Assembly: GCF_037975245.1 (NCBI RefSeq)
Contig: NC_092580.1
Coordinates: 27,803,501-27,867,500 of the forward strand
Direction: 5' to 3'
From: Apostichopus japonicus
Taxonomy: Eukaryota > Echinodermata > Holothuroidea > Aspidochirotida > Stichopodidae
Length of the DNA stretch: 64,000 bases
Below the pieces are notes generated by a model. That model worked only from the letters and a program-made list of their open reading frames with translations, did no database searches and was not told where the DNA came from. Position 1 is the stretch's first letter. Each line of letters starts with the position of its first letter. Below, piece after piece: positions 3,360 to 56,738 of this stretch. The position numbers were made by a program, and so were the translations under genes.

Positions 3360-3632
3360 TAAAAGATGACGTCATTCCTCAGTCCTGGGCTAATTGCAGC
3401 CGATAACACACACACACAAATTCTTTAACAACTTTACAAAAAAACAGTATAAGGGCATGTTAAACGTCCGAGTTCCACTAATTAAACATTGAGGCAAACT
3501 AAAAAAATGACGTCATTCCTCAGTCTTGGGCTAATTACAGCCGATAACACACACACACAAATTCTTTAACAACTTTACAATAAAAAAGTATAAGGGCATG
3601 TTAAACGTCCGAGTTCCACTAATTAAACATTA
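3360..3632. repeat. Direct tandem duplication of about 141 bp
   Basis: Two adjacent, nearly identical copies follow gene A. The landmark TGACGTCATTCCTCAGTC starts at 3367 and again at 3508, and both copies continue through an (AC)n tract to TTAAACGTCCGAGTTCCAC. A few substitutions and small indels separate them. Each carries one TGACGTCA palindrome, the canonical CRE core, but there is no evidence of promoter use here. Confidence 0.85.
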
Positions 3633-30300: not shown

Positions 30301-33300
30301 CAAAGTTTTCAACCCCGTCTCGGACAAGGCAAAAATCAGTCCACAACCTTGGACGAATCAGGTATATAGTCCCTCGGAGGCCTTAGGCTCGAGAAGCTCT
30401 ACTAGCCTACTGCGCACATTGCTCAATCTGGGTGAAGCAAGTCTTTGGTTCTCTATGGGCCCTTAATTCCAACCGATGTTTCTCTCGGGGGCCCTTGTTG
30501 AGAATTTAATTTCGGATGTCTGTTTTATCTGATCCCGCTTTCATAATTCAAAACCAATCCTTTCCCTTGTTTGTAGACCTAGCGACAAGAGCAAACCAGG
30601 CACGTCAGCCCTCAGCGAGGCGCTAGCCCTTCCATCTGACGACGAAGAGGAAGATGTTGTGGAAGAAGAGGATGAGGAAGAAGATGAAGAAGAGGAAGAA
30701 GAGGAGGAGGAGGAAGAAGAAGATGAGGAGGAGGAGGAAGATGAGGAGGAGGACGATACTGTGGTCGAGGAAGATGAGGAAGACGAGATGGAGTACGAGG
30801 ATGCGGACGAATCCGGCGATGAGAGTCTGCTCTCGGACACCAACGACAACCTCCATCAGCTGTTTGGCACCGTCATCAACTTCAAGAATGCCGCGGGGCA
30901 GGTTATATCCGAGCCGTTCATGAGGCTACCTAGCAGGAGGACCTATCCAGATTATTACCAGGAGATCAAGGAACCCATGGCGTTGTGCAAAATCAGGACC
31001 AAAATCAAGGTCAGTGTCTGAAAGAAGCCCGATTGTGCGGTATTGATGATGATGGGTAACGCAAAATATAGGGCCTTTGGTTCATTGAAAGATGTGAAGT
31101 TGTGAGGGGGGATATCCCAATCAGGTAAACCTTAAATACATATAGTCCAATATAGTCCAAAAAAAGATGCATTGTGTTAGATGGATAAACTGCATGATGG
31201 TTGGGACATAGAAAAATAAGCAGCGGTTGTACAAAAATACTCATCAATTTTTTTTTAACATTTTTTTTAATAGTACTTTGTAAATTTATTAAAATAAATT
31301 TTATTTGTTAGGGCTGCAAGTATGAAAGTCTTCAGGAGATGGTGCTGGACATGGATCTGGTATTTAATAATGCCAAACAGTACAACATGCCAAACTCTAG
31401 GCTGTACAAAGATGCAGACAGACTCCAGAAAGTCATGCTTACAAGATGCAAGGAACTGGAGTCCATCAAGGTGAGAAAGACCTGTACAGCTGATTGTAAA
31501 TTTGTGGCTGACTACCTTCCATTCCTTATTCAAGTTTTTTTTTTTGGGGGGGGGATAGGGGGGTGGGGCAGGTGGATTGTCATTGAAGATTTTGCTTGAT
31601 GCTAAGATGTTTGTTACAATAGCATAATGAAGAATTTGGAAGTTGCTGAGAGTGAGACCAAATTCTGCTGTGTGTGAAGTGTAAGGTAATATAATAAATA
31701 CAATTATTAAGGTTGTATTTAAGGGTGCATAAAGGAAAGTCACTTTTCTTGTCTTGGACACTCACGGTGTAATACTGACAGAACTCTCTTTTTTTCTAAT
31801 AATTCGTTAAGTGTTAGTTTTTGTTTGATATGAATGAGTTGTCTGCTTTTCCATTTGGTATCATTTTACCTTGTTTTCTTAGATTGAGTAGTTGCAGGGA
31901 CAAATTCCTGTATGTCTTACCCCCTGGTTTTCCTCCTTGTTAGGTCATGCTACTATTAAACTCAGCTTGAGTTTGTAAGTACAAGAGTAGCTTTATTTCT
32001 TGCAATAGTGTCAGATACTACTCTGGTCAATATGGTGGACCTTATGGTACTTTCCGATATGTTTCCATTTCCCAAGATACGTTTCACAATTATAATAATG
32101 TTTTAATTTATCTCAATAGAAGGAGTTTGAAAGTGATGATGAAGGAAGCAGCAAGAGAAAGAACGCAAGAAGAGATGCTATGAGGACCAACATGATGTCC
32201 ATGTACGAGAGTCTGGTGGAATGTAAGGTAGGACCAACATGATGTCCATGTACGAGAGTCTGGTGGAATGTAAGGTAGGACCAACATGATGTCCATGTAC
32301 GAGAGTCTGGTAGAGTGTAAGGTAGGAGCAACATGATGTCCATGTACGAGAGTCTGGTGGAATGTAAGGTAGGACCAACATGATGTCCATGTACGAGAGT
32401 CTGGTGGAAGGTAAGGTAGTACCAACATGATGTCCATGTACGAGAGTCTTGTGGAATGTAAGGTAGGACCCACATGATGTCCATGTACGAGAGTCTGGTG
32501 GAAGGTAAGGTAGTACCAACATGATGTCCATGTACGAGAGTCTTGTGGAAGGTATGGTAGGACCAACATGATGTCCATGTACGAGAGTCTGGTGGAATGT
32601 AAGGTAGGACCAACATGATGTCCATGTACGAGAGTCTGGTGGAATGTAAGGTAGGACCAACATGATGTCCATGTACGAGAGTCTGGTGGAATGTAAGGTA
32701 GGACCAACATGATGTCCATGTACGAGAGTCTGGTGGAATGTAAGGTAGGACCCACATGATGTCCATGTACGAGAGTCTGGTGGAATGTAAGGTAGGACCA
32801 ACATGATGTCCATGTACGAGAGTCTGGTGGAATGTAAGGTAGGACCAACATGATGTCCATGTACGAGAGTCTGGTGGAAGGTAAGGTAGGACCAACATGA
32901 TGTCCATGTACGAGAGTCTGGTGGAATGTAAGGTAGGACCAACATGATGTCCATGTACGAGAGTCTGGTGGAGTGTAAGGTATGAAAAATATAACCAAGA
33001 CGTCTCCCGCCTTCTTAAAAAAGACACAAACCCCAAATACGATCGATCATTGGTCTTTGTGATAGATATACTGTACTTGTGTTGTAACAACTTCCCCATT
33101 CTGGGAGATATCACATGTTTTATGGTTCCTTCACACACAAGGCTGAAGAATTGATCAAGTCCAAAAATGACTTCTGAGGATTTCTCATTTCTGTGATTTG
33201 AATTCATTACAGGACGACACCGGTAGGGCTCTGATCACCATGTTCATGGAGAAGCCTTCCAAGAAGGAGTACCCTGATTACTACCAGGTCATCACAGACC

Positions 33301-36300
33301 CAGTAGACATGAAGATGATTGAAGTCAACATACTCATGGACAAGGTACTCCCCCTCTTAGTTTTATAAAAAAAAAATTCTATAAAAAATGGAGCAAAGGA
33401 GGAGAAACTCTGCTGTTAATGTTTCTGTAAATAATCCTGATTCTTACTCACTCATAATTGCAGATCCATGATCTAATAGTTGGATGTGTGGGTTACTTTT
33501 CTCAACTGAAAAAAACAAGTAAAAGACCAAATTAGATCCTGATTTATTTGGGATCTTTTTCACCCACTTTTTCTTTCTGAACAAGAAAAGAAGCAGCTCT
33601 GCAGAAGAAAGCAGTGCTATTGCTTTTAATCTTAACTCTTCACCGTTATTTCTTAGATATGGTTATCTTTTATCAATATTGAACCTATTTGCTTGAAATG
33701 CAGACACTGAATGATTACTCTGCTTTGGTACTGAAGAAGGCTTTCCAGTTTTGGTCAAATGATTTATTAGCCTCTGTGTGATTTTCAAAGGAGCTTTACA
33801 CTTGACTTTCATATGTTCCCAGATTCCCAATAATTATATGTGTGATACTCGTTTATTTTAATCCCACGTTCCTTGCGTTTGATCATCATCTGCAACAATA
33901 CCCTCGTTCCTAAACATTACAGTTCACTGAATATCCTCTCTGCAATTTGTTTCAAATTATTTGTTCATTTTTGTGTGGATATTTTCTTTTGTTTTTCCCC
34001 CCTCTTCTTTGACACCAGTACCCTTCGGAGGAGGCCCTGCTGGTGGACTTTGACACCATGTTCTCCAACGCCCGTCACTACAACGAGGAAGGCTCCATGA
34101 TCTTTGAGGACGCAAATCAGCTCGAGAAGGTCTTGAAGAAGAAGTGCAAGGAAATGAATATATCTGTCCCAGGTAGAATTTGAAGTGATAGATTTTCTTT
34201 TGCTAGTTATGAAGGTGTATAATGTCAAATAGTGCATATAGAGAAGATCTTGTGTGAGGTATTTATACAGTGTGTAAAGTAAGTTGAGCCAACTTACTTT
34301 TACACATTCTCTTACACAGGCTGTCTAGTGGATAAGCAGTTTGCTAACAGTTTTATTTTAATTTTAGTTTTTTACATAGTCTCAAAACATGAACGAGCTG
34401 AGGGTAAATTACATACATTCCCTGTGGTATCTTGTATAGATTGCTGAAATTTTGTTTAATTTTATTTCTTATACAGACTTCCAGATTGGGAAAGGTTTGA
34501 GAAAGTCACCTTCCAAGAAGACGACCAAAGCTCTAAGTCCTCTGGCCCAGAAGCTGCAAGAGCTGTACAGCACAATTAAGGATTACAAAGACACGACTGG
34601 GAGGGAACTTGCCACTCCTTTCATCCGGCTACCATCGAAAAATGTAAATCCTGTCAAGAGATTTTTGTAATAATGATAATATATAAAAAAAAATTGTTTT
34701 TTGTTTTTTTGTACTGCTTCTGCAAGACCAACTAATATTAGAAGAGTATTTATAACATTAACCTCAGGAAACAGGACTCATTTTGTACCAAGTGACTGAC
34801 AAGTTCTGAAATAAGTGACGATAACCATTCTGGGGGTCCTGGTATCTACCAGAGGCAGTGGCGTTAAAGACCCTCAGGTTGGGACACATGGACAAGAGGT
34901 CACCACACACTCCCTCTTTGATGACTTCATCTTTCCTTAAGTATATTGTGAAATCAGAATACATTGTATTTCCCCATATTTTAGCGAGTTCCAGGCCTGT
35001 AGGTCTCCTGATCCCAACTCCCTTTCAAGTTTTAGCCTAACCAGAGGGATAGAAATCAGATTCTGCAGTACAATTTGTGACGGTGGAGCAGGCCTCATTA
35101 CATTCCAGATTGATTCCCATAGAAACGTTGCTTTTGGAAAAGTGAAAAGGGTGTAGTAAAGTAACTTGTATGTTGGGCTTTGCTAAGTAATCATTTTTGT
35201 GGGCTCAGATGTTGCTATAATTTGTCAATGGCAGTAAAACATTCAGCTAGAAAATTTGACAGGGTTAAATCTTGTCATCAAGCATTTTCCAAAATTAACT
35301 TTTGTTGGATAAAAAGAAACTTGAGACTTTCTTTTTCATAGTCATATAAGTATCTCGACATTCTCAATGTCATCAAAGTTTGCAAGATATATATTACTTT
35401 GTTCGAAAAAAAAAAGAAAAAAATAGTAGGTTGCTTTTGAAAACACTGATAGATTTGTAGCAAGTGAGCTAAACCTATTTATGTTTACATATATTTCATT
35501 ATATATTTGTTTTTTCATGTGTAACTTTTCCCTCACTCCTGCGTGTATGTGCAGGAGTACCCGGAATATTATCAGGTGATTAAACGGCCCATAGACATGC
35601 AGCGGATCCAACAGAGGATACTATCCAAACAGTACGAACAGCTCGACGACATGGTCAACGACTTCCTCCTCATGTTCGACAACGCCTGCAAGTTTAACGA
35701 ACCAGATTCCCTTATTTATAAGGTAAAAAAAAGATGGCAAATGTGTTTAGTCTCATGTTATGTAATTCCCATGCATGTTAACAGCGTTGTTCCTTCCTCT
35801 CAACACTGTCATTAGATCAAATTTAGCTGTTTGGTTTCTATACGTTTTTGCCTTAATATTTTTGTGATATATTATTCATATTTTATTGAGATATTACTGA
35901 TATTCAGAATTCATATTATGCTGTTTGGTGATCTCAGGAGCTGGTAAAGAGGTGGATAGATTACAAATGTCCCTGGCACAGCCGTAACATGAAAATATTT
36001 AACATGTAGGTAATGATATGCTACCATAGGAACAGATCGCCGTATGGTTTAAAGTGTTAGTAAAAACTGCAATGTGTTGTGGTTAACTGTGTATAAGAGA
36101 TAAGTTTACAGATCAATGTTATATGCAGCCTGAACGGACATTTGTATGACAATGCTGAACAACACTCACTCTTTTGTTGAATGTCTTGAATATTGTTCAT
36201 GTGAAAAAAGAGATCTTTTCTCTCTCTTCTGTGTTTTCAGGATGCTCTGACCTTGCAGCGAGTTCTTCTACAAACCAGGACAGAGCTCTCCGGGGATGAA

Positions 36301-39300: not shown

Positions 39301-42300
39301 TCAGTTATATTGCAAGGTCAAAGGTGAAACTCTCCATTCGCATTTTCATTCAGTCATGATAGTGGATTTGAAGGTCAATGCACTTTTTTGTCTCAGTTAT
39401 GGAGGAGGGTCAAAGGTCGCACCACTATTGGGGTTTAATTCACATATGGAGTGGGTCAAGCTCCACATGAAAACAGTGAGGCTGTGAGGTTGTTTCAATG
39501 AATATCTGCCAGTTTTATCCATGTCATTCACCATGGCAACAAGACTGATTCCCTGTTCCAGTGATAAGAGTAGCATGTGCAGTGAGTTATCAACAAAATC
39601 CAACTGAGGCAGATGTTATTGTAGTCTGCTGCATTATTTACTTTAAAAAATAAATAAATAAATAAAAATCAAATTTGGAGTTTTGTTTTATTGTTCTTCC
39701 TTCTATTGTCTTTTCATTTAAGATGAAATGTAAATAGTTAATGTGCTGTTCATAATTTATGGTAACTGAGAATAACCCTGTCGTGTCATTATCAAAATTG
39801 TAAACAGAAGTTCACCTTGATAGCATGATGTTTTGTTGTCATTTCTTATCCAAGGTTTCTGACGGTTTGGTAATCCAAGGGCAGACGTATCGTGTGGGAG
39901 ATTTCGTCTATGTTGAGCCGAGGTGAGTGGTTTTGATTTGTGTCGTTCTTGTCGAAAGCCGCCACAGGAATCGATTAACAGAATGAACGTTCATTCCATG
40001 TGGCAGATGCTTGGAAGTGTCTGGATCGCTTCATCCCAAGCAAATAGTTTCCATGGAAACACAAAGCACCATCCACCCTAGCATCTCTGTCATAACATTT
40101 CTTCTCCCAGCATGTAGAAAATAATAATCTATAAACAAAGGTTATTTTGGAGATACTTTGTGGGTGGATGGATGTTTCTTGCTTTTAAGTGTTTTGCACT
40201 TCGCAAGATTTAATTGTGGGGGAGGGGGTGATTGTATTCCATATATCCCATGAACTTCGCTTTGAACTTGAAGAAAAATAAGCAGAAAGGTGAGAAAATA
40301 AATGGCATCTGTTCTGTGACAATGTGACAAGCTGTAACGATGAATGTACAATAGTAGATGTAGTTGTGGGATGGGGGGAGGGGGGAGATTGTATTCCATA
40401 TATCCCAATGAACTTCACTTTGAACTTTAAGAAAAATAAGCAAAAAGACAAAAAACTAAATGGCATTTGTTCTGTGACAATGTGACAAGCTGTAACGACG
40501 AATGTACAATAGTACCTTGACCTTTCAGCGAAACTCATTAAACGTATTCATTGTCAATTTAAATAATCATGGAAGGTCTCAAACATTTTTTCGTTGGTTT
40601 TTCCTGGTTTCGTAGCGAGAAACAACTCAAGCCCCACATCGTCTGTATCGAGAAACTGTGGAGGGACCCGGATGGGGAAGGCTGGTTACACGGTAACTGG
40701 TTTCTGAGACCAAATGAGACCTTCCATCTGGCCACTCGAAAATTTCTGGAGAAGGTACGTCTGACACTCTTTATCGTGCATACCGGTTTAGTTATTCAGG
40801 AACTCAAGATCGCAATGTCTGAAAATGTTGACACGCATACTGGATGCAATTGAAGCACGTCAAAGAGCTGCCCGATAAAAGTATTTTTTTTTCCTGTTTT
40901 GGTTATATTCGAGTCTTTATCTCAAGTTTATTGATTATTTCATCATTTGAAAGGTTTAAAGAAAAATTATGATGCCTACATGTATCTGCTTTTCTGAAGA
41001 ATCAATCATTGACCATCTAAATATCTGTAATTTCCTTACCCTAAACAGGAGGTATTTAAAAGTGATTATTTCAACAAGGTCAAGATCTCCCAGCACGTGA
41101 TTGGCTACTGTTTCGTGATGTTCGTCAAGGACTACTTCAAGATGAAACCGGAGGGCTTCACCAACGACGACGTCTACGTCTGCGAATCTCGTTACTCTGC
41201 CAAAGCCAAAGCTTTCAAGAAGATCAAGGTGAGCGAGAGATCTGAATTATCATCTTTCCGTAATAAATGCAAAGTATTTTATATTTTGATAACAAAAATG
41301 AAGTTTGGTATTCTTCATGATACCTACATTTTTTTTAATAAGAATTGTTTATGTATTAATATTTTACAAAGTATTCTTATTCTTGTATCAGAGAATTTAA
41401 CTTTTCTAATTTTTACTGAATTTGATAATTTTATTTCGTTGCTTGTAATTTATATGTTTTATGCACGTTGAGATGTTTTTACATGTAATGCGCCTTTTAA
41501 GAATATATTTACGTTACAGAATATATTTACATTACAGAATATATTTACATAAAGCAATGGCAAAAATTTACCTTTATACTGGTGTGCACCAACAGTCTAC
41601 CTTAGTTCAACCTGCCATAACCATAATGAAAATGTAATAATACTGTTGTGATGACTTTGACAAAAGAATGTGTGTTGTTTTCCTAGTATTACTGCGTTAA
41701 CCAATGCTACGGTTCCAAATGTTAACACTTTTCTATATCTATCTTTTAATATGTCTTCGTCATCTTCTATTTCCTAAAGCTTTGGTCCGTGCCTCAGAGC
41801 AACCAGAAGATCATCAATCGAGATGAGCCCCTCTCTAAAGTGCGGGTGGCATCGGTGTTTGCCGGAGCCCAAAGGCCCAATGAATTGCTGGACCAAACAG
41901 GGGAACACTTTCATCCCTTTGATAAGGACAAAGAGGTTAGTGTCGAACAATGTTGACACTTCCTTTTCCTGATATTCGTGGGAGTGCCAGTATTCCTCTA
42001 ACATTTGTACATATTAAATATTAATGGGAATATGTGATTAAACAAAAAATGAACATCACAATGTTACTGAAACTTGATGAAAGCCTGCCTTGCCTTCCTT
42101 ATTTCCAAAATTTGGGTTTTTCCAGAAATAATGGATCCAATGTGAAATGGATGATCTTTGCAGCACAAAAAAAGAACTAGGTTTCCACACCAATTTATCT
42201 GAGAATTTTAGCTTTTTAAAAGTTTTGTTAAAATTATTAAATCTAGAAAAGTTTGAAGCTCCTCTTGCTGCAAGACAAACTCTTCTCATATCAGTAAATA

Positions 42301-48300: not shown

Positions 48301-51300
48301 CGACGTGGGTTTCGCTTTGTAAACTCTTTTTTTATTTAGAAATTTTTATGTAGAAAAAGGGCACATTTTTAACCTGAGGAAAAGTGGGGGGGCACGTGCC
48401 CCCTGTGCCCCCCCGGTTCCGCCGCCCTTGACTATGTGTATATACCATCATTTCTATCTTATTTATCTTGTGTGGGAAAAAACTCAAAAACTCAAATGCA
48501 AGAAATGTTTGGCTCGAGCAGATGACAACCCAAAAACCTGCAGATTAAGCGTCTACTCTACGAAGCTATTCAATCACTCTTAATTCTTTTGTTTCTGCCA
48601 AGGTGCCAGATTCCTCTCTAGCTCTAAATACCATTTCTGTTTCAAGAGTTGTTTTATTTTCTCCCAGTACTTTTATCCATTTAGGTTTTCTGATAACTAT
48701 GAACTATAAGTAACAAGGCTGCATGCCAGAGCATTGAAACGAACGAAATGACGGAATCGCAACCAACGTGTGGTCTTTTTTTCCCCTCTGTTTTTTGAGA
48801 CTTGATGTTATCTCTCATGTAGGAGACAATGCCTTCTCAAGAGAAATGCATCTCATGTTTTTTTTAATTCATTTCCCTTCCAGTCTCGTTATCTCTCATG
48901 TAGGAGACAATGCCTTCTCAAGAGAAATGCATCTCATGTTTTTTTTAATTCATTTCCCCTCCAGTCTTTTCTAGAAAGACGTGGAAAGATTGTTGGGCAT
49001 AATCAGTAATTATCAAACATCATTTTCTTTCTCTGACAGTGGCATAAGCTAACTGCCGAGGATAAAGTCCGATACGAAGAGAGGGCTGCCATTTTAGCTG
49101 AGAGTCGACCACCAAAGCCCCCACGGAAGGGAGCCGATTCCCCTGCCCCCCAGCCCGTGGCCCCTCCTGGTATGTACACTGTCTACGAGTGTATGTGGGA
49201 GGGATGCGACTACCAGTACGAGACGTCCGAAGACTTGGTTCATCATCTGCTGGAGACGTCTGGACATCTTCAGGGAGGCAACAACGGTGGGTGTTTAACG
49301 TCCTCATCTGTTTCTTTCTGTGACGAGAAACGAGTCGGGTTTCATGACAGATAATTTTCGTAGAATCGATTCAGAAAGATGAAGCTAAATTTCTGTATTT
49401 TCAAACAGGACAGCCTCTTACGATAAGGTAACTTGAATGATTAAATCATTAAATCAAGTGAAATAACTCCGAGGTGCATCGGGTGATGCAAGAATGCGGA
49501 CCGGATGGAAACAAAGATACCGAGACATGGCTGTCGTAATATCACTGGTGGCGGTACTTACTTTGGAATGTAAAACCTATTCACAGGAATACCACAACTG
49601 TTAATACGAGTGACACAACTTTGTAGCACCCAGCATAAATGCTTAAGAATGGATACAATTATTCATGTTTCGTTTGGTCTGTGAGGTAATTATCTTGTGA
49701 GTCCATGTACATTGCATCGGTTCACCGAGACAGCACTGATTCTATCGTATTTTTTTAATTCTACCCCTTTTTCGTTTGGTTCAGGCGAGACAGAGTTTCC
49801 TTGCAAGTGGAAGGGTTGCACCAGATACAAGCGCAATCAGTGAGTACCTTCCAACGAATCAATTTTTTTGGTTGTATCCTCTTTCTTCGAAAAAGTAAAA
49901 CGAACTCGATAGTTGATATAGGTCCACATGAGTGCCCGAACATAGCTGATCACTTCAAGTGAGTAATGGTCAACACTCCAAAAACATCTTGTGTGCAGTG
50001 TTGTTACTTACTGTTGAATAATCTAATGTGAAAATGTGGCAATAGGAATCTCTAAGCCAATCACAGGATCTGTCTTACTTTATAAGTGAATGGAGTCTAA
50101 GCTCCTTCAGTTGGTTCATTGCTGGTTTATTCGTGTACATGGGAGTGTCTTTTTGTTTCTTGAGGAGTTTGTTCCGGTCTTTTTTCATCTCTGCACAAAG
50201 AGTTCCTTTACTCTCCGTCTTATTTTCAGACCCTTCCCCGTTTTCTCAAGACTGGTGCGACATTGCAAAGAGGTTCATGTCAAGAACTCGGTCAAACATG
50301 TCTACCCTCATCAGATGAGCAGGTAAGATCGTTGTGCTTTTCTATGTGACACCACAGGGGTGGCGGTGGAGGGGGGGGTGGAAGAGAGAGGAGGGTGCTT
50401 CTGTTTTCTTTTCTTTTTAACAACAATTATACAGAGTAGAAGCTTGGGTATGTTTTTGCTGAAGTAGGAAGGGGAAAAAAGTTAGTAAGATTTAGCATCG
50501 ATAATCACTGAAAAAGTATGTTTCTTTAATAACATTTTTCGTCCTGGTTTGATTTTCTAGGAATTACTTTCCACGATACCAGCAACAGGGTATGCAAAAT
50601 CACCAGCCTGGGGGCGCCATCATGGGAATCGTCGGGCCCCCCACACCTGTCGGGATGGCTACACAACAGCTCACACAAAATACACCGAGATTTCAAGGTA
50701 AGGATCCTATACGTTGCAGTTGAGTAAACAGAAAAGACCTTAATCTGTGGTTGTTATAAAGCAAAGCTTGAAAGTAACGGAATGCATAGTCACAAAATAT
50801 TAATCAAGCTAATGAAATAGTACAGGATAAAGTGAAATTGCTTTAACCTGATGGACATTTTGTACCGCTCTGTCTACCCTCCTTACCTTCACATTCCTGC
50901 CTGAACCCCTGCAGCTTTAAGCGCTTCCACCTACTGGACTTCTTTGTATCCCCTTGCGTTACACATTGCCACTAGAAACGACATATTTAACCAAGAAAGC
51001 CAAAGTTGGAAGTATCGTTTTCAGAACAGAGCCTGATTTGTCCATAAACTACTTGCCTTGGACTGGCAGATTAAACATAGAAAATGCAACATTTTTAATT
51101 AAGAGACTAAAGAATACACAACATGCTTCACTTATCATGTGTAGTTTTTTTACTTAACTAATGGCAGTGCACACATCACTTCCATGGAGTTGTAATAATC
51201 AAGCTATGTATCAATAAAACAGGGTCTTCCTTACTGCAAACAGTCTCAGCCCAGAATAACCGAGACCTGCAGATATTAAAACGTTGGTGTGTGCAGTGCT

Positions 51301-51775: not shown

Positions 51776-54700
51776 GTGACTTTTTTAATGTGGTTGTTTC
51801 TGCATCTTGCTATTTCTTCCACATTTTGTTGTTTCCTAGGTAACTACAACGCCGGTATGCAGGATCCCTCGGGACAGCAGATGCAACAACAACCTGGACC
51901 CTACCACCAGATGCCTCCGTACTCCCAACAGCAGCAGTACCCAGGGCAACAGCAGTATCCCCCACAACAACAGGGATATGCCCCGCAACAACAGGGGTAT
52001 CCCCCACAACAACAGGGATATCCCCCACAACAGTACCCACCTCAGCAACAACAGTACCCTCCACAACAACAGCCATACCCCCAACAGCAACAGGGTTATC
52101 CCCAACAACCCCACATGCAAGGACCCTCCCATATGCAGCAGCAGCAACCTCCCCAGACCTCACAGCCCCAAAATATGCCTCCAGGACCACCCCCTCCCCA
52201 CCCTGGGGTGCAACATCCCCAACAAGGTGAGTCTTATTTGTTTCTTGCTGTTTATTTGTGAACGTCAAACTTGTTTTTGCACCCTCTCTTTATCTTTCCA
52301 AATAAATTTGTTTGTGTTTGCCTCTGGTTTTGATGAGTTGTTGTTAAAAGTTTGATATGCTCACTGTTGCAAAAAAAATATTGTACAAGTTGCTAATTGA
52401 TCAAGGCATGTCACAAGCCCATACTCGATACAAGCACATCGATGGTACACCTGGTTGTTCTCCAACCACCCCCCCCCTCCCCTGTGGCTACACTTGTGAG
52501 ATAAATGAAGTGATTGACAAGCCGATGATGCCCCCCCCCTTAAACTCTTACATTCTTAAAATTTAAACGTGTGTAAACAAAATGATTTTTTCTCCACTTT
52601 GCTGTGCATCACCCTACGGTCCAAAGGACATATGTTCATACCATTCAAGTTTCTTGCTGTGCTGTGACTGCTTTTTGGTTTAACTTATTCCATTTGGGTG
52701 TGATATTTTAGCTCAGTGATTTCAAGAATCCTATGGATCTTGATAGCGGTGAAAGGTCATTTGAGGTCTGAATTCCCAGCAAGTGGAAAGGGGATTGATT
52801 TTGGGTGGGGGGGGGGCAGTATACTGTATTATTTGTGACGTACGTTCTTTATTTGCTTTAGCGCATGACAAAAAATTATGACCATAGAAGAACCCAGAGT
52901 GCCAATACTGATGATGCAAAGTCTGTTAAACTGTTCCCAGAGCAAACATTTTATTATAAAACAATACCAAAGTTTTACCTCTTTTTTTGTGTGTAAGTAT
53001 TGGCAGATAGATTGGATTGCATTTGATGTACTTTTCTGCTGTTGCCCTACGTTATTGCACTAAACATGGCTTGTATTCCCCTTTTTCTTATTTCTGTTTT
53101 CTTCCTTTTTCCTTTTGGTGACATCTTGGTTGATTTGATTTCAGCTATGGTTCGTCCCATGCACCCTATGTCTCACCCTGTACCCCACCATATGTTACCC
53201 AATGTGATGCACCCTGCTGCTCAGGGCCAAATGAAACCAATGCTTCCAGGTTTGTGCTATCCAAATTAGCCTTCATGACAAGAATTAGTCCATTAACCAT
53301 AGGTTGCATTTTCAGCTCTCTTGACTTCAACTTACTGAAACTTTATCTCTTCTGCAAACAGACTGGTTAGTTTGGAAGAGTTGATTTGTTCACACCTTGC
53401 CATGTCTGCCTTGTTCTGATAGTGATTTGGCTACTAGCTGTGTGATGAGTTGCATAAAAGCAAATAGGCAGCTCAACTAAGGTGCAAAAAGATGGGACTG
53501 ATCACTCAGTTAACCAACTGGAAAAAACCTGCTGTTCAGTACAAATGGCGGGTTTTTGGATGCAACCTATAGCTAATGGACACTTTCGAGGCATGTTCAT
53601 TACTTTACTTTAATACAGTAACTGTAAAATCCACGTATTTAAAGAATCGGTCATTTACATCGCTGCTTTAGGAAGGCTCGAGTAGGTCAAGACGGTGAGG
53701 TCATTGTCTTAAAACCACACTTCAGGTTATCAGTGACAGATCCAGGACTTTGTGAAAGAAGGGGAGCAGGAGAATAAGTATCGGTAGTGACCGAAATTAC
53801 AACCAAACTAGCAGTGCGTTAGAAAGCATCGGTTAGAGAGTATTAAAGGAATGTCCGTGTACATGCTGAAGTTTCCATTATGTACTTTGGTTTGAGCGAA
53901 ATTGTGAGTGCTAAGAACAGATTCGGCAGAGCGGGGCCTCTCCCTGGATCTGTCCCCGGTTATGTGAAATGATAATAAAGAAATTTTATCTAATTGATTT
54001 ATGAAAGTTTGGATAACAAAAATCACATAAGACTTACTAGTATTCTTTGAATATATACACACACACCTTTCTCTATAAACACATAGATATGTATGCCACC
54101 TTGAGGTCACACCCTGAAGCAGATCTAGCACTGCTCGATAGCTATGCAAGACGTCGTTCGTTTAGCTGTTTAATTCCTATTATTTTAGCCTCAGAGTTGT
54201 TACGAGTCTCTTCAGTTTAACGGTCGAGGCGAGTCATTGAAAATTATTTTTCCTGACTCGAGTTGAGTCATCGACTGGAGTCACTGTGCTACTTCTGTGT
54301 TAATAACAAATTGACAAACCCGTCTGAGTCACATGATCACTTATGAAATTGAATGACTCTCGGTGATGATTTCTTACAACAGTTGATTTAATAATTGCCC
54401 AGATGGATATTCTGTAATCCTTGCAGAGATCTGTAATTCTTCAGTGGGACACTGTCATACAGTAGATTTGTACAGTAGATTGTACTGTAAATTGTACAGT
54501 AGATTTGTACAGTAGATTGTACAGTAGATTGTACAGTAGATTTTGTACAGTAGAGTGTACAGTAGACTTTGTACAGTGGATTGTACAGTAGATTTTGTAC
54601 AGTAGATTTTGTACAGTAGATTTTGTACAGTAGATTTTTTACAGTAGATTTTGTACAGTGGATTGTACAGTAGATTTTGTACAGTAGATTTTGTACAGTA

Positions 54701-56738
54701 GATTTTGTACAGTGGATTGTACAGTAGATTTCGTACAGTAGATTTTGTACAGTAGATTTTGTACAGTGGATTACTTTATTACATATTATTACACATTCTG
54801 TTGGGAGGGTTAATAAATCTCACCCAAGAGAATCAATAAAATCATCCAATAATCAAAGAAGAACTTGTTGGATTAATCCTTGTAGGAAAGCACTTGCGGA
54901 AACTATTGAGTATTTTCAAGCAATAGTACAGTTTTGTTGTTGTCATAACCGTAAAGAAATATAAACCTGTAGTTTTTTATCTCAAGACCTGTTAACGATC
55001 TTAGAGAGAATCTCTGTGGGGAACTCACAGATGTGACTTTCTAACTTGAACATATCCGATCTGATTTTGTAGGTGCGCATGGTATGGTACCTTCTTCACT
55101 ACCATCACAACCCTCCCTCCCTCCTCAACCGATGTTTGTGACCCCTCCTGCCAAGACTCAACGACTCCTTCACTCAGAGGCCTACATAAGGTGAGTTAAG
55201 GTGGCAAGATTGTTACTTTTGAGACTCATTGAAATTAGAATTGTGCATCTTTGGCAAATTCAAATTTTAATAGAGGTGGGAAAACTGTGGAGAAAACTGT
55301 AAACATCTATATATTCTGTTTTTGGAAATGCTGGTTTCCTTATTCTGAATTCATCTTTAAAAAAAGAAAAATGATACTTGTTTATCTGACTTAAAGATCT
55401 GCTTTATTGGCTCCATTGGTTTCCTTATTCTGAATTCATCTTTAAAAAAAGAAAAATGATACTTGTTTATCTGACTTAAAGATCTGCTTTATTGGCTCCA
55501 ATTATAGCACCCTATAGCTAAGAAAGTTTTGTGGTTATGTATACGACCTGCCACGATCGTAAATCAACCTCAGGCTCTACAATTAGCCTGCGTAGCTTCT
55601 TAACACCATTAAGGCTCTTTGTGTAAACACTGTGTGGAAATATGTTCATGTCTACAGTGTAGTTAATCATACAGCGTCCACACAAAGACCCTCATACAAG
55701 ACAATATATGTGACAGGCGTTGCAGACTAATTGGTAAAAAGAGGTCGTTTTACGACCAAGGCAGGTCGATTACATTATCTCAAGAAAACTTTTCCATGAT
55801 AGCGTGCAATAGTTGGGGTCTATACAGCAGACCTTTACGTGGCACTCCAAATATATAGTTTTTATACTATTTATGTATTTATTCATTCATATGTTTAATC
55901 GATCAACCGTTCATTCATTCATATCAGTCTGTCAGGCAATCATTTGATTAATTTGATGATTATTATTATTATTTTTGTGTTTGCCAGGTACATAGAAGGC
56001 CTAAATTTGAAGTCTGGGAGTATAAGTGACTGGAGACGTAGTCTATCCGCCAAGGAGGAACATTCCAACCTCACGGAGCAACAGAAAGCTCGCTTACCCA
56101 GCCACTGGTTTGCCAACAGGCAAGACGGCGACGTGGTCAAAGCCATGTGGAAATTACGAGACTTGTTAATGCAAGACACACTACGGATGGAACAAGATCA
56201 GGACCTGTAAGTTGAATCTTTGTGATTAAAAAGCCTTGGTCATTTTTGTTGTGCTTTATTTCTTTCTAATTATTATATACTCCCCCCCCCCCGCTCCCCT
56301 TTCATTCCTCTGTGAATTTTGCATTCGAAAAATAATTCACTGCTTTTCATAAATTTGCCAAAATGAAAATTGAAAATTGTAGGAAGTTTGGAATATCGTA
56401 AAGTTGTTTGAAATTGTAAAGCAAAAAATCCCAAAATGGGCAACTATAAAACTGAGTATTTGGAGTCGGAAGATTCATAAAAATGATTTACTATTCTATG
56501 TGACAAATGACAGGAATGTTCTTTCTTGTTTATTTTAATTTTTTTTTATTCCTTTTCATCTTCTTCTCTCTTTACAATTTGGTCAAGTTTTGAAGGAGAA
56601 ATGATCTACGGTATAGAACGATAAGTGCTCTCGTTCGTAACAACGATATTTCATTTTTTCTTTTTCAGATTTGACAAGGATAATGAAGAAGTGAACGTTC
56701 AAACAGAGCCACCTCAGTCATTACCGGATCCACTTTAG
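18326..56738 (+). CDS. PBRM1: Polybromo-1 (BAF180), PBAF chromatin-remodelling subunit
   Basis: Coding exons: 18326-18451, 19205-19302, 19732-19879, 20083-20178, 23839-24003, 28870-29115, 29798-29979, 30577-31009, 31312-31470, 32120-32227, 33213-33344, 34019-34172, 34477-34643, 35555-35722, 36241-36476, 36869-36998, 37737-37895, 39062-39151, 39855-39922, 40616-40754, 41049-41228, 41780-41935, 42362-42528, 43670-43848, 44885-45174, 46485-46598, 49040-49286, 49785-49839, 50230-50322, 50561-50697, 51840-52226, 53145-53249, 55073-55190, 55988-56206, 56669-56738. All phases fit and total 1906 codons plus TAG; human is about 1690. Nuclear subunit of the PBAF SWI/SNF complex; its bromodomains read acetyl-lysine. 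Order: six bromodomains, two BAH, HMG box, two zinc fingers, Gln/Pro-rich region, conserved C-terminus. The ATG pair at 18326 opens a basic MMSKRRR start like the vertebrate MGSKRRR. Exon 5 is supported only by phase and acidic character; small exons could be missing. Confidence 0.95.
19205..20178 (+). CDS. PBRM1: PBRM1 bromodomain 1 (exons 2-4)
   Basis: About residues 43-156. The segment L-Y-S-I-L-R-N-Y-K with G-R-L-L-C-E matches the N-terminal helix of polybromo BD1; P-E-Y-Y-E-I-V and D-P-I-D form the ZA loop. The position that is Asn in canonical bromodomains is Tyr here (N-A-Q-D-F-Y), as in human BD1 as I recall it, so weak or atypical acetyl-lysine binding is an ancestral trait rather than damage. 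After exon 1 (M-M-S-K-R-R-R), which is basic like a nuclear localisation signal. Confidence 0.92.
20179..23838 (+). other. PBRM1 intron 4
   Basis: 3.66 kb with GT-AG borders and no further exon recognised. It includes a short (TCTG)n tract at about 20259-20289 and AT-rich sequence. Frames here lack splice support. Confidence 0.75.
23839..24003 (+). CDS. PBRM1: PBRM1 exon 5, acidic linker between BD1 and BD2
   Basis: A 55-codon phase-0 exon flanked by a CAG acceptor and a gtatat donor. It ends in a run of Asp/Glu ([13 protein letters not shown]). Human PBRM1 has a shorter acidic linker at the same place. It lies alone between two long introns (3.7 and 4.9 kb), and since it is phase 0 on both sides it could be skipped without a frame change. 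RNA evidence would settle whether it is constitutive. Confidence 0.7.
24004..28869 (+). other. PBRM1 intron 5
   Basis: 4.87 kb, the longest intron of the model. It contains a CCCTAA-type telomere-like tract at 25691-25716, a (CTT)n tract at about 26957-26990 and several C/G homopolymers. A 109-codon antisense frame at 24887-25216 has no recognisable features. Confidence 0.7.
25691..25716. repeat. Short interstitial telomere-like repeat
   Basis: taaccctaac ccctaaccct aacccc: about four CCCTAA units, two expanded to CCCCTAA. This equals TTAGGG on the other strand, the telomere motif of vertebrates and echinoderms. Confidence 0.7.
28870..29979 (+). CDS. PBRM1: PBRM1 bromodomain 2 (exons 6-7)
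   Basis: Residues about 236-345. [20 protein letters not shown] and [11 protein letters not shown] give helix Z, the ZA loop and the acetyl-lysine-binding Asn (the final N in A-F-N). BD2 is the strongest acetyl-lysine reader in vertebrate PBRM1, and all key residues are kept. Exon 6 uses the acceptor ...tcaataaag at 28869; its upstream frame happens to stay open but is intronic. Confidence 0.92.
30577..31470 (+). CDS. PBRM1: PBRM1 poly-acidic linker and bromodomain 3 (exons 8-9)
   Basis: Exon 8 (433 bp) first encodes a very acidic stretch (about residues 375-437) with a run of twelve Glu codons, made of mixed GAA/GAG/GAT, then BD3 (about 445-550): [21 protein letters not shown] and [11 protein letters not shown] with the binding Asn retained. 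Human PBRM1 has a much milder acidic linker here. The antisense Ser-rich frame over the acidic codons is a shadow. Confidence 0.92.
32120..34172 (+). CDS. PBRM1: PBRM1 bromodomain 4 (exons 10-12)
   Basis: Exons 32120-32227, 33213-33344 and 34019-34172. BD4 (about residues 575-675): [30 protein letters not shown] and [10 protein letters not shown], with the Asn intact. The phase-0 donor after exon 10 is AAG|gtagga at 32228. The last 44 bases of exon 10 plus gta are copied 16 more times downstream in the intron (see the 47-bp array). The first donor alone preserves the frame: reading on reaches TGA at 32240-32242. Confidence 0.92.
32184..32982. repeat. 47-bp minisatellite made from an exon end and its splice donor, 17 copies
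   Basis: Seventeen head-to-tail units, each exactly 47 bp, starting at 32184 + 47n. Unit 1 is the 3' end of PBRM1 exon 10 plus the first three intron bases; units 2-17 are intronic. Each unit runs from GGACCAACATGATGTCC through GAGAGTCTGG to GTAAGGTA. Variants are few: GTACC starts at units 6 and 8, CTTGTGG in the same two units, GGAAGG for GGAATG in units 5, 7, 8 and 15, and a TATGG donor in unit 8. 47 is not divisible by 3 and the reverse strand lacks stops, producing spurious 258-364-codon antisense frames. Confidence 0.97.
34477..35722 (+). CDS. PBRM1: PBRM1 bromodomain 5 (exons 13-14)
   Basis: Residues about 705-800. A basic Ser/Lys linker (S-P-S-K-K-T-T-K) leads to L-Y-S-T-I-K-D-Y, then [15 protein letters not shown] and [10 protein letters not shown], with the binding Asn present. 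The junction 34643|35555 splits the ZA loop in phase 0 (N|E-Y-P). Confidence 0.92.
36241..37895 (+). CDS. PBRM1: PBRM1 bromodomain 6 (exons 15-17)
   Basis: Residues about 825-945. [35 protein letters not shown] and [12 protein letters not shown] match polybromo BD6, a divergent bromodomain with a shortened ZA loop. At the acetyl-lysine Asn position this protein has Thr (R-G-L-T-R-T-D-S), whereas human has Asn there (R-R-M-N-R-T-D-S) as I recall. The exon 15 donor is the weaker AG|gtttgt. Confidence 0.9.
39062..41935 (+). CDS. PBRM1: PBRM1 BAH domain 1 (exons 18-22)
   Basis: Exon 18 is an acidic/basic charged linker (residues about 970-999). Exons 39855-39922, 40616-40754, 41049-41228 and 41780-41935 encode BAH1: [40 protein letters not shown] and [13 protein letters not shown] domains are protein-interaction modules of chromatin proteins; in PBRM1 they have been linked to PCNA. 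Close to human throughout. Confidence 0.93.
39152..39440. repeat. Degenerate repeats rich in AGGTCA half-sites
   Basis: Starting at the exon 18 donor, the phrase ttatggagaagggtcaaaggtca recurs in altered form about every 50-65 bp (near 39167, 39220, 39335, 39405), often with attcagtt before it. Several copies form GGGTCAAAGGTCA or close matches, i.e. direct repeats spaced by one base (DR1) like nuclear-receptor sites. Function is not implied by this alone. Confidence 0.6.
40211..40517. repeat. Tandem duplication of about 157 bp
   Basis: Two diverged direct copies in PBRM1 intron 19, offset 157 bp (ATTGTATTCCATATATCCCA at 40231 and again at 40388). Both end in tgacaagctgtaacga and gaatgtacaatagta. 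G-rich tracts start each copy. Confidence 0.85.
42362..45174 (+). CDS. PBRM1: PBRM1 BAH domain 2 and acidic tail (exons 23-25)
   Basis: Residues about 1181-1392. [39 protein letters not shown] and D-V-F-V-C-E-S-Q-Y give BAH2. It is followed by [11 protein letters not shown] and K-E-P-S-P-L-L, both nearly invariant in polybromo. The exon 25 end encodes an E/A-rich acidic tail. The donor AAG|gtaaga is duplicated 62 bp downstream. A possible extra small exon (45587-45613, cag|...|gtaaaa, phase 0) lies in the next intron and was not included. Confidence 0.93.
45163..45287. repeat. Tandem duplication of exon 25 end and splice donor, G-rich
   Basis: The sequence around the exon 25 donor, GGCACCCAAG|gtaagaacag, recurs 62 bp downstream as GGCACTCAAG|gtagaacag (second donor after 45236), each followed by GGGTTGGAC and a G-rich tract (GGGGGAGTGGGGG). 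Both tracts could form G-quadruplexes. Use of the second donor would shift frame and pass the TAG at 45205-45207. Confidence 0.8.
46485..49169 (+). CDS. PBRM1: PBRM1 HMG box (exon 26 and first part of exon 27)
   Basis: Exon 46485-46598 and exon 27 from 49040. [28 protein letters not shown] and Y-E-E-R-A-A form the truncated HMG box of polybromo, a DNA-binding fold. The intron splits the box exactly before the invariant Trp and contains a hAT-like insertion and an unrelated tandem duplication. A Pro/Lys/Ala-rich stretch follows, up to an internal alternative donor at 49170. Confidence 0.92.
47366..48430. mobile_element. Non-autonomous hAT-like element in PBRM1 intron 26
   Basis: A 1065-bp element with a perfect 14-bp terminal inverted repeat (CAAGGGCGGCGGAA) and an identical 8-bp target-site duplication, ACTATGTG, at 47358-47365 and 48431-48438. 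G/C runs lie just inside each end, as in the element at 667-1767. No transposase frame. Another probable element is nested at 47890-48258. It sits inside the intron that splits the HMG box. Confidence 0.88.
47890..48258. mobile_element. Probable nested MITE
   Basis: The left end CATAGGTGTAAGAGGCG and reverse-complemented right end CATAGGCGTAGGAGCCC are similar inverted termini about 370 bp apart, each next to a GGG/CCC tract. The flanks gtagtaaa and gtacagta match poorly, so the target-site duplication is eroded or misplaced. Confidence 0.55.
48807..48970. repeat. 91-bp tandem duplication
   Basis: GTTATCTCTCATGTAGGAG starts at 48807 and 48898. The copies are nearly identical and both end in a pyrimidine tract plus CAG (ttcccttccag, ttcccctccag), resembling splice acceptors. 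It lies 70 bp before exon 27. Confidence 0.9.
49164..50322 (+). CDS. PBRM1: PBRM1 tandem CWCH2-type C2H2 zinc fingers (exons 27-29)
   Basis: Finger 1 (late exon 27, 49170-49286): C-M-W-E-G-C, then x3-Y-x5-L-x2-H-x6-H, i.e. C-x4-C-x12-H-x6-H. Finger 2 (exons 49785-49839 and 50230-50322): C-K-W-K-G-C, then F-x5-L-x2-H-x4-H, with five extra residues between the second Cys and the Phe. Both start C-x-W-x2-C, the tandem CWCH2 pattern known in Zic/Gli proteins and in ARID2/Rsc9, partners of PBRM1-type complexes. The fingers fall between the HMG box and the conserved [12 protein letters not shown] segment, where human PBRM1 has none as I recall. I believe some invertebrate polybromos also have C2H2 fingers, but could not check. 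Confidence 0.88.
50561..53249 (+). CDS. PBRM1: PBRM1 Gln/Pro/Tyr-rich low-complexity region (exons 30-32)
   Basis: Exon 30 (50561-50697) carries the conserved [15 protein letters not shown]. Exon 31 (51840-52226) encodes ~129 residues dominated by Y-P-P-Q-Q-Q-G repeats and Gln runs, then P-P-G-P-P-P-P-H-P. Exon 32 (53145-53249) is Met/Pro/His-rich. Human PBRM1 is Pro/Gly-rich here, with fewer Gln. Likely disordered. The antisense Leu/Val-rich frames over exon 31 are shadows. Confidence 0.9.
50698..51839 (+). other. PBRM1 intron 30 with two (TA)n tracts
   Basis: Contains (TA)n at about 51321-51363 and 51738-51770. The part from about 51200 to 51660, with a small hairpin TTCTGCT...AGCAGAA at 51468-51487 and a CTGAAGAAGAGC...GCTCGAAAGC segment at about 51584, looks like a transposable-element remnant, but no family was identified. 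Confidence 0.5.
53731..53955. mobile_element. Degraded hAT-like MITE
   Basis: The left end CAGTGACAGATCCAGG pairs with the right-end CCTGGATCTGTCC, which has apparently lost three bases. The flanks CAGGTTAT (53723-53730) and CCGGTTAT (53956-53963) agree at 7 of 8. Located in PBRM1 intron 32. Confidence 0.55.
54458..54772. repeat. TACAGTAGATTTTG minisatellite
   Basis: About 24 head-to-tail units of 12-15 bp. Toward the 3' side a higher-order pattern appears: three TACAGTAGATTTTG units followed by one TACAGTGGATTG. Located in PBRM1 intron 32. Confidence 0.93.
55073..56738 (+). CDS. PBRM1: PBRM1 conserved C-terminus (exons 33-35)
   Basis: [26 protein letters not shown] matches the near-invariant end of polybromo; L-P-S-H-W-F and [14 protein letters not shown] follow. 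The last exon (56669-56738) encodes a divergent acidic end finishing P-D-P-L and TAG at 56736-56738, about 20 residues longer than human. Confidence 0.93.
55333..55500. repeat. 85-bp perfect tandem duplication
   Basis: GGTTTCCTTATTCTGAATTC starts at 55333 and 55418; the copies are identical as read through ...tttattggctcca. Identity implies a recent event or an assembly artefact. PBRM1 intron 33. Confidence 0.9.

Follow-up and report, generated by a model that had tools for sequence, protein, structure and literature searches.

The 64,000-nucleotide stretch of sea cucumber DNA analyzed here (Apostichopus japonicus, NC_092580.1; hereafter the window) carries a plus-strand PBRM1 gene, with bromodomain and HMG-box exons. 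One exon of this gene runs into a 47-bp tandem array, the first copy of which consists of the last 44 bases of the exon plus GTA, so the array spans the exon-intron boundary (Table 1). The exon encodes 36 residues ending in ESLVECK, with the acceptor ...CTCAATAG/AAG (the slash marks the splice site) and the donor AAG/GTAGGA, and its intron starts at 32228. Joining this exon to the exon from 33213 gives a protein whose match to polybromo-1 bromodomain 4 runs through the junction, where it is one residue short (PDB 3tlp, E 1.1e-15; 48.1 bits for the fourth stretch matched in 7y8r), and we therefore consider the first donor to be the productive one. The downstream exon itself has one full match in a genome search, plus two other matches that are 44% identical. 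Reading through past the first donor adds VGPT and then meets a TGA codon, which an earlier note on this DNA had placed correctly. An overlapping upstream site, AAT/GTAAGG, likewise leads to a TGA when it is joined to the next exon, as read from the sequence.

Tandem Repeats Finder (TRF) reports a single array with a period of 47, 17.0 copies, 96% matches and 0% indels. Aligned in the register starting at 32185, it resolves into 17 full units of nine types, with 8/17 units identical to the consensus and a mean pairwise identity of 96.3%. The earlier note had described 17 units of exactly 47 bp, the first made of the last 44 exon bases plus GTA, and both statements are borne out by the unit alignment. 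Its hint of a two-unit higher-order repeat in units 5-8 also proved real, since units 6 and 8 have two changes in common that are absent from every other unit. Unit 1 is identical to the consensus and unit 17 differs from it at two positions, one of which derives from the flank, while inner units such as unit 8 differ more. A search of the 671.6-Mb assembly with the unit, in which only the best candidates were scored, gave eight matches, all within the array. On the same set of scored candidates, a dispersed repeat is not supported, because the unit matches this array alone. Without the array, the intron would be only ~230 bp long. We also observed three long open frames (278, 312, and 373 residues) that traverse the array on the minus strand between 32108 and 33234; they exist because none of the minus-strand frames of the unit contains a stop, and they are most likely meaningless.

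AAG/GTAGGA is present in 13/17 units, and the other four units have another GT donor. A T>G change gives units 5, 7, and 15 a stronger upstream donor, AAG/GTAAGG, with a U1 duplex of -10.0 kcal/mol, and in two of them, units 5 and 7, the main donor has become a weaker GTAGTA. Unit 8 has two changes in the donor region, leaving ATG/GTAGGA at the old site and AAG/GTATGG five bases upstream, and its best site has a duplex of -7.7. The donor of the last unit is AAG/GTATGA (-5.7). The earlier note had every later unit repeating an AAG/GTAGGA-type donor, which holds for most of the array but fails for units 5, 7, 8, and the last one; it had also called the unit 8 donor broken (TATGG), and although the main site there is indeed changed, the unit is not simply without a donor. 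For these duplexes, the U1 5' end of the host genome is ATACTTACCTG in the three copies we read, of 42 scored. Compared to 15 donors of the PBRM1 gene, an incomplete set of exons selected visually among the open frames, the typical unit donor (-9.2 kcal/mol) beats 9/15 and is below 6/15. At least 42 copies of the U1 small nuclear RNA lie at G000:C20:29019462-29087219, ~1.2 Mb from the window, and many of them are ~855 bp apart.

The structure is not singular: we found similar arrays at other genes of the same genome, and the accessible text of PMC3087553 describes a class of such repeats, named mirages. Minisatellites are common in this genome: a first sample of 20 stretches of 10 kb at round coordinates (200 kb) contained three arrays of at least ten copies (period 20-120, at least 80% match), or 5115 bp per 200 kb sampled. 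Another array in that sample, with nine copies at the locus we call L023, repeats the end of an exon-like stretch (QQNETNN...IKPPIAGKGLTPG) that itself has no Pfam match, and a one-base loss in its unit 5 breaks the frame. TLE_N exons are found 20-35 kb upstream on the same strand, so we take this gene to be Groucho/TLE. We then searched the genome for three occurrences of AGGTAAGT or AGGTGAGT in spaced repeats and read the exon-side flanks. This gave 19 arrays (10 for AGGTAAGT and 9 for AGGTGAGT), which are all the arrays among the places listed (of 374 and 566, respectively), with two pairs of neighboring clusters of similar units in the AGGTGAGT set counted once each. Among the matches listed, 7/19 arrays directly follow an exon of a protein verified by Pfam or PDB.

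Including PBRM1 and TLE, there are nine loci with a verified or linked gene. The amount of exon copied into the unit, measured as the best matching stretch, ranges from 45 bases in PBRM1 through 33 in the glycosyltransferase, 31 in KRI1, 29 in DNPEP, 27 in SPT16, 26 in TLE, and 18 in YJU2 down to 8 in PTP and 2 in SPTLC1, and in the last two arrays the repeat is largely intronic and takes in the donor. On reading through from the first donor, a stop occurs before the second donor at 7/9 loci; TLE and SPTLC1 stay open.

Table 1. Features of the PBRM1 array in the window, and arrays following exons of other genes in the same genome.
Feature	Position	Strand	Basis
PBRM1 exon, 108 nt, phase 0-0, start of bromodomain 4	32120..32227	+	open frame, acceptor, donor, protein match across junction
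47-bp tandem array, 17 copies, first copy = exon end + intron start	32183..32982	+	TRF, unit alignment
First donor GTAGGA, the sole one preserving the PBRM1 frame	32228..32233	+	frame; U1 duplex -9.2 kcal/mol
In-frame TGA once the first donor is passed	32240..32242	+	reading of frame
Units 5-8, 94-bp two-unit higher-order repeat	32373..32560	+	units 5+6 vs 7+8: 3/94 differences
Last-unit donor GTATGA, joins single-copy intron	32980..32985	+	unit alignment and flank
Next PBRM1 exon, bromodomain 4, ends AAG/GTACTC	33213..33344	+	open frame, protein match, genome search
L023 array, 36 bp x 9, GTAAGA in each unit	G000:C13, L023 2709-3039	minus	follows exon-like stretch
Arrays after verified exons: glycosyltransferase, SPTLC1, PTP, KRI1, YJU2, SPT16, DNPEP	L041, L043, L045, L048, L051, L057, L059		
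Glyco_transf_21 exon before array			Pfam 1.6e-10
Serine palmitoyltransferase 1 (SPTLC1) exon before array, 22 residues			PDB E 5.3e-5, LCB1 homologue 1.1e-5
Y_phosphatase exon (PTP) before array			Pfam 1.7e-10
Kri1_C exon (KRI1) before array			Pfam 5.6e-28
Saf4_Yju2 exon (YJU2) before array			1e-12
SPT16 exon before array			7.4e-23
Peptidase_M18/DNPEP exon before array			2.9e-16

Selection on the repeated donors is not supported by the 17-unit alignment, where donor positions are as variable as the rest of the unit. There are eight variable positions, leaving out the flank-derived one, and the 9-nt donor contains two of them. This is no depletion (P(<=2) 0.83), and we see no donor-specific conservation in this alignment. 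The RNA fold of the first six units is nothing unusual (z 0.11), and the DNA fold of two units has a z of -1.48. No inverted repeats were detected under the limits set, and no Rfam family reaches its gathering score in the window. Given the variability of the donor and the presence of boundary-spanning arrays at unrelated genes, a neutral minisatellite that keeps its donors by homogenization, one of the options raised in the earlier note, fits.

We believe that the array is very probably a neutral minisatellite of the mirage type, in which donor 1 is used and the copies are kept alike by turnover. From the sequence we infer the use of donor 1, the decay of other products, neutrality, and the following history. 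A segment across the exon-intron boundary (44 exonic bases and GTA) would have been duplicated in tandem, and the array would then have grown by unequal exchange or slippage. Turnover of this kind would be expected to leave traces such as the identical copies, the sub-repeat of 94 bp, and the aberrant last unit. The last unit ends with GTATGA and enters single-copy intron, and therefore GTATGA is probably the ancestral donor; the current first donor, GTAGGA, would be a junction product of GTA and the duplicated exon piece. TATGA is common to the exon and intron sides near the break, although a simple event at TATGA would yield 50 bp, not 47. The spliceosome would keep to the first, upstream-most donor, giving the normal 108-nt exon and removing the remaining units as intron, and a later donor, if used now and then, would lengthen the mRNA by at least 47 nt, create a premature stop, and lead to loss of the mRNA by nonsense-mediated decay. 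The array is recent, and the donors would persist because the copies are recent and homogenized, rather than selected.

Several results weigh against this interpretation. A donor of -9.2 kcal/mol or better is found in 15/17 units, therefore U1 pairing alone cannot pick out unit 1. Among the 19 listed arrays, five are plausible but unverified (L042, L046, L049, L050, and L056; the exon candidate of L050 has no Pfam or PDB match), and for another seven (L044, L047, L052, L053, L054, L055, and L058) we saw no exon whose end coincides with the first donor; in L053, a TIL exon ends ~110 bp before the array. Genome-wide, AGGTAAGT occurs in fewer places than its reversed-pattern control (374 vs 446), while AGGTGAGT occurs in more (566 vs 297). 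Many listed places of TGAATGGA, the reverse of AGGTAAGT, are TGAA- or TGGA-like simple repeats, and places overlap within arrays, so these motif counts do not decide enrichment.

The same abundance of donors could mean that the array tunes PBRM1 dosage, with some transcripts using downstream donors, gaining a premature stop, and being degraded. The TGA in unit 2 and the 15/17 units whose donor equals or exceeds the first in strength would suit such a role, but the donors show no specific conservation and like anatomy occurs at functionally unrelated genes. In addition, TLE and SPTLC1 (2/9 loci) have no stop between donors 1 and 2, which means that a stop is not a shared design, and the accessible text on the amphioxus cases suggests normal splicing (PMC3087553, PMC3902484). 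We consider dosage tuning improbable. We would be still more reluctant to regard the units as an intron or exon gain under way, in which units containing AGGT would be taken up as parts of new exons or introns. Each typical unit contains AAG/GTAG/G, and models of this kind have been proposed for amphioxus mirages (PMC3087553) and for a tandem duplication in a potato gene (PMC4974935), going by the accessible text of both. However, the AG of the units has no pyrimidine tract, a 47-bp unit shifts the frame, read-through stops in unit 2, and there is no sign of a new exon at PBRM1, which makes this very improbable here.

A U1-binding platform or decoy, for instance against premature polyadenylation in the intron, would explain why 15/17 units are able to pair well with the host U1 5' end. 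The sites are not conserved, though, and an intron of ~230 bp without the array would be a poor candidate for such protection, so we find this idea hardly credible. The explanation to which we give the least weight is an assembly artifact. Repeats can be miscounted, but there are nine distinct unit types, the array passes cleanly into single-copy intron, its 800 bp are short relative to HiFi reads (provided that the assembly is that described in the accessible text of PMC10344927), and like anatomy recurs elsewhere in the genome, all of which make an artifact extremely improbable.

We compared the position of arrays relative to intron ends in 12 sample arrays picked by hand (period 28-104, at least three copies), leaving aside one row of L012 (63 bp) and any row that overlapped another array of the set. 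The exon scan covered the 11 arrays other than L023, with 10/12 open frames of at least 40 residues scanned. Among the 12, the TLE array was the only one seen to include the donor of a gene-linked exon. At L010 (7844-8592, minus strand), the array starts 27 bp after the donor of a CCT2 exon, and at L027 (1426-2113, minus strand) it starts ~60 bp after the donor of a TBK1 exon. These two cases hint that minisatellites favor intron starts. Toward the acceptor, the closest frames that resemble exons are roughly 100 bp off or more, judged by eye with no family search. With so few arrays, we make no claim of a bias toward intron 5' ends. Within the window, the 81-bp duplication at 48807-48967 was considered as an acceptor counterpart of the array and rejected, as it ends ~70 bp before the exon starting at 49040 and does not span the boundary. 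This is one of the two-copy tandem duplications observed in the window, with others at 55332-55500 (85 bp), 40218-40514 (158 bp), and 3361-3631 (141 bp), and it is possible that they are seeds of new minisatellites. The window also has coding repeats at 30644-30753 and 51947-52109, one being a run of acidic E/D residues in PBRM1 and the other a repeat rich in Q, Y, and P.

A broader and rather doubtful idea is that in this lineage 5' splice sites and the beginnings of introns are preferred places for tandem duplication, possibly through a link to transcription or co-transcriptional splicing, with a first-donor rule making runs of equal donors harmless. If this were true, exon ends would be photocopied into introns across the genome, and mirages would be lengthening introns genome-wide to this day and supplying material for the gain of introns and exons outside the cephalochordates. 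Sixteen near-identical copies of an exon's end and donor, lined up behind the exon itself, amount to a natural experiment in which the spliceosome faces a choice of equal 5' splice sites and only one is productive, and the like anatomy at further conserved genes makes this question of donor choice testable.

Mirages are tandem repeats of amphioxus that span exon-intron boundaries, described in the accessible text of two papers in Adh3, the globins BflGb6 and BflGb9, PGBD5, and troponin C (PMC3087553, PMC3902484). According to the same text, their units are 10 to 160 bp long, many with AG/GT splice signals; copy number varies between haplotypes (6 and 3 in BflGb6); and Adh3 data and globin reverse transcription PCR suggest regular splicing despite the repeats (PMC3087553, PMC3902484). 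Mirages are also characterized by edge units that escape homogenization and by copy numbers that can differ between cells as well as haplotypes, and their reported host range, a descriptive and not a defining trait, is the cephalochordates. The PBRM1 array resembles them in spanning an exon-intron boundary, in having units that carry splice signals, and in belonging to a genome where several unrelated genes are affected. It differs in that the host is a sea cucumber, not a lancelet, and in having 17 copies compared to the 3 and 6 of the BflGb6 haplotypes. A search of this genome for the GFP family gave no match, although the control genomes gave none either.

In human IFI6 (6-16), Turri et al. 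in 1995 reportedly described a minisatellite at an exon end with multiple splice donors, two downstream repeat units being reported as used donors. As in PBRM1, the minisatellite at the exon end supplies several donors. Its 12-bp unit would keep the frame, whereas the 47-bp unit of PBRM1 does not (47 mod 3 = 2, with a stop in unit 2). In the open-licence literature, we found no reports of donor arrays outside cephalochordates and human, and nothing relevant on such arrays in echinoderms or other invertebrates. In human segmental duplicates, variable internal tandem repeats at exon-intron boundaries are reported to form novel introns, according to the accessible text of PMC2812944. There too, boundary repeats alter the exon-intron structure; in PBRM1, however, an existing intron has been lengthened. 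The PBRM1 segment also recalls intron gain by tandem duplication of AGGT-containing segments, since the duplicated segment contains AAG/GTAG, but the array sits at the beginning of a pre-existing intron and no new intron is seen between duplicated coding pieces. The PBRM1 array fits a known class, the mirages, and what is new is the presence of mirages at several conserved genes of a sea cucumber. This suggests that mirages, although named in amphioxus, are not peculiar to it, and such arrays at several conserved sea cucumber genes are a wider and more interesting result.
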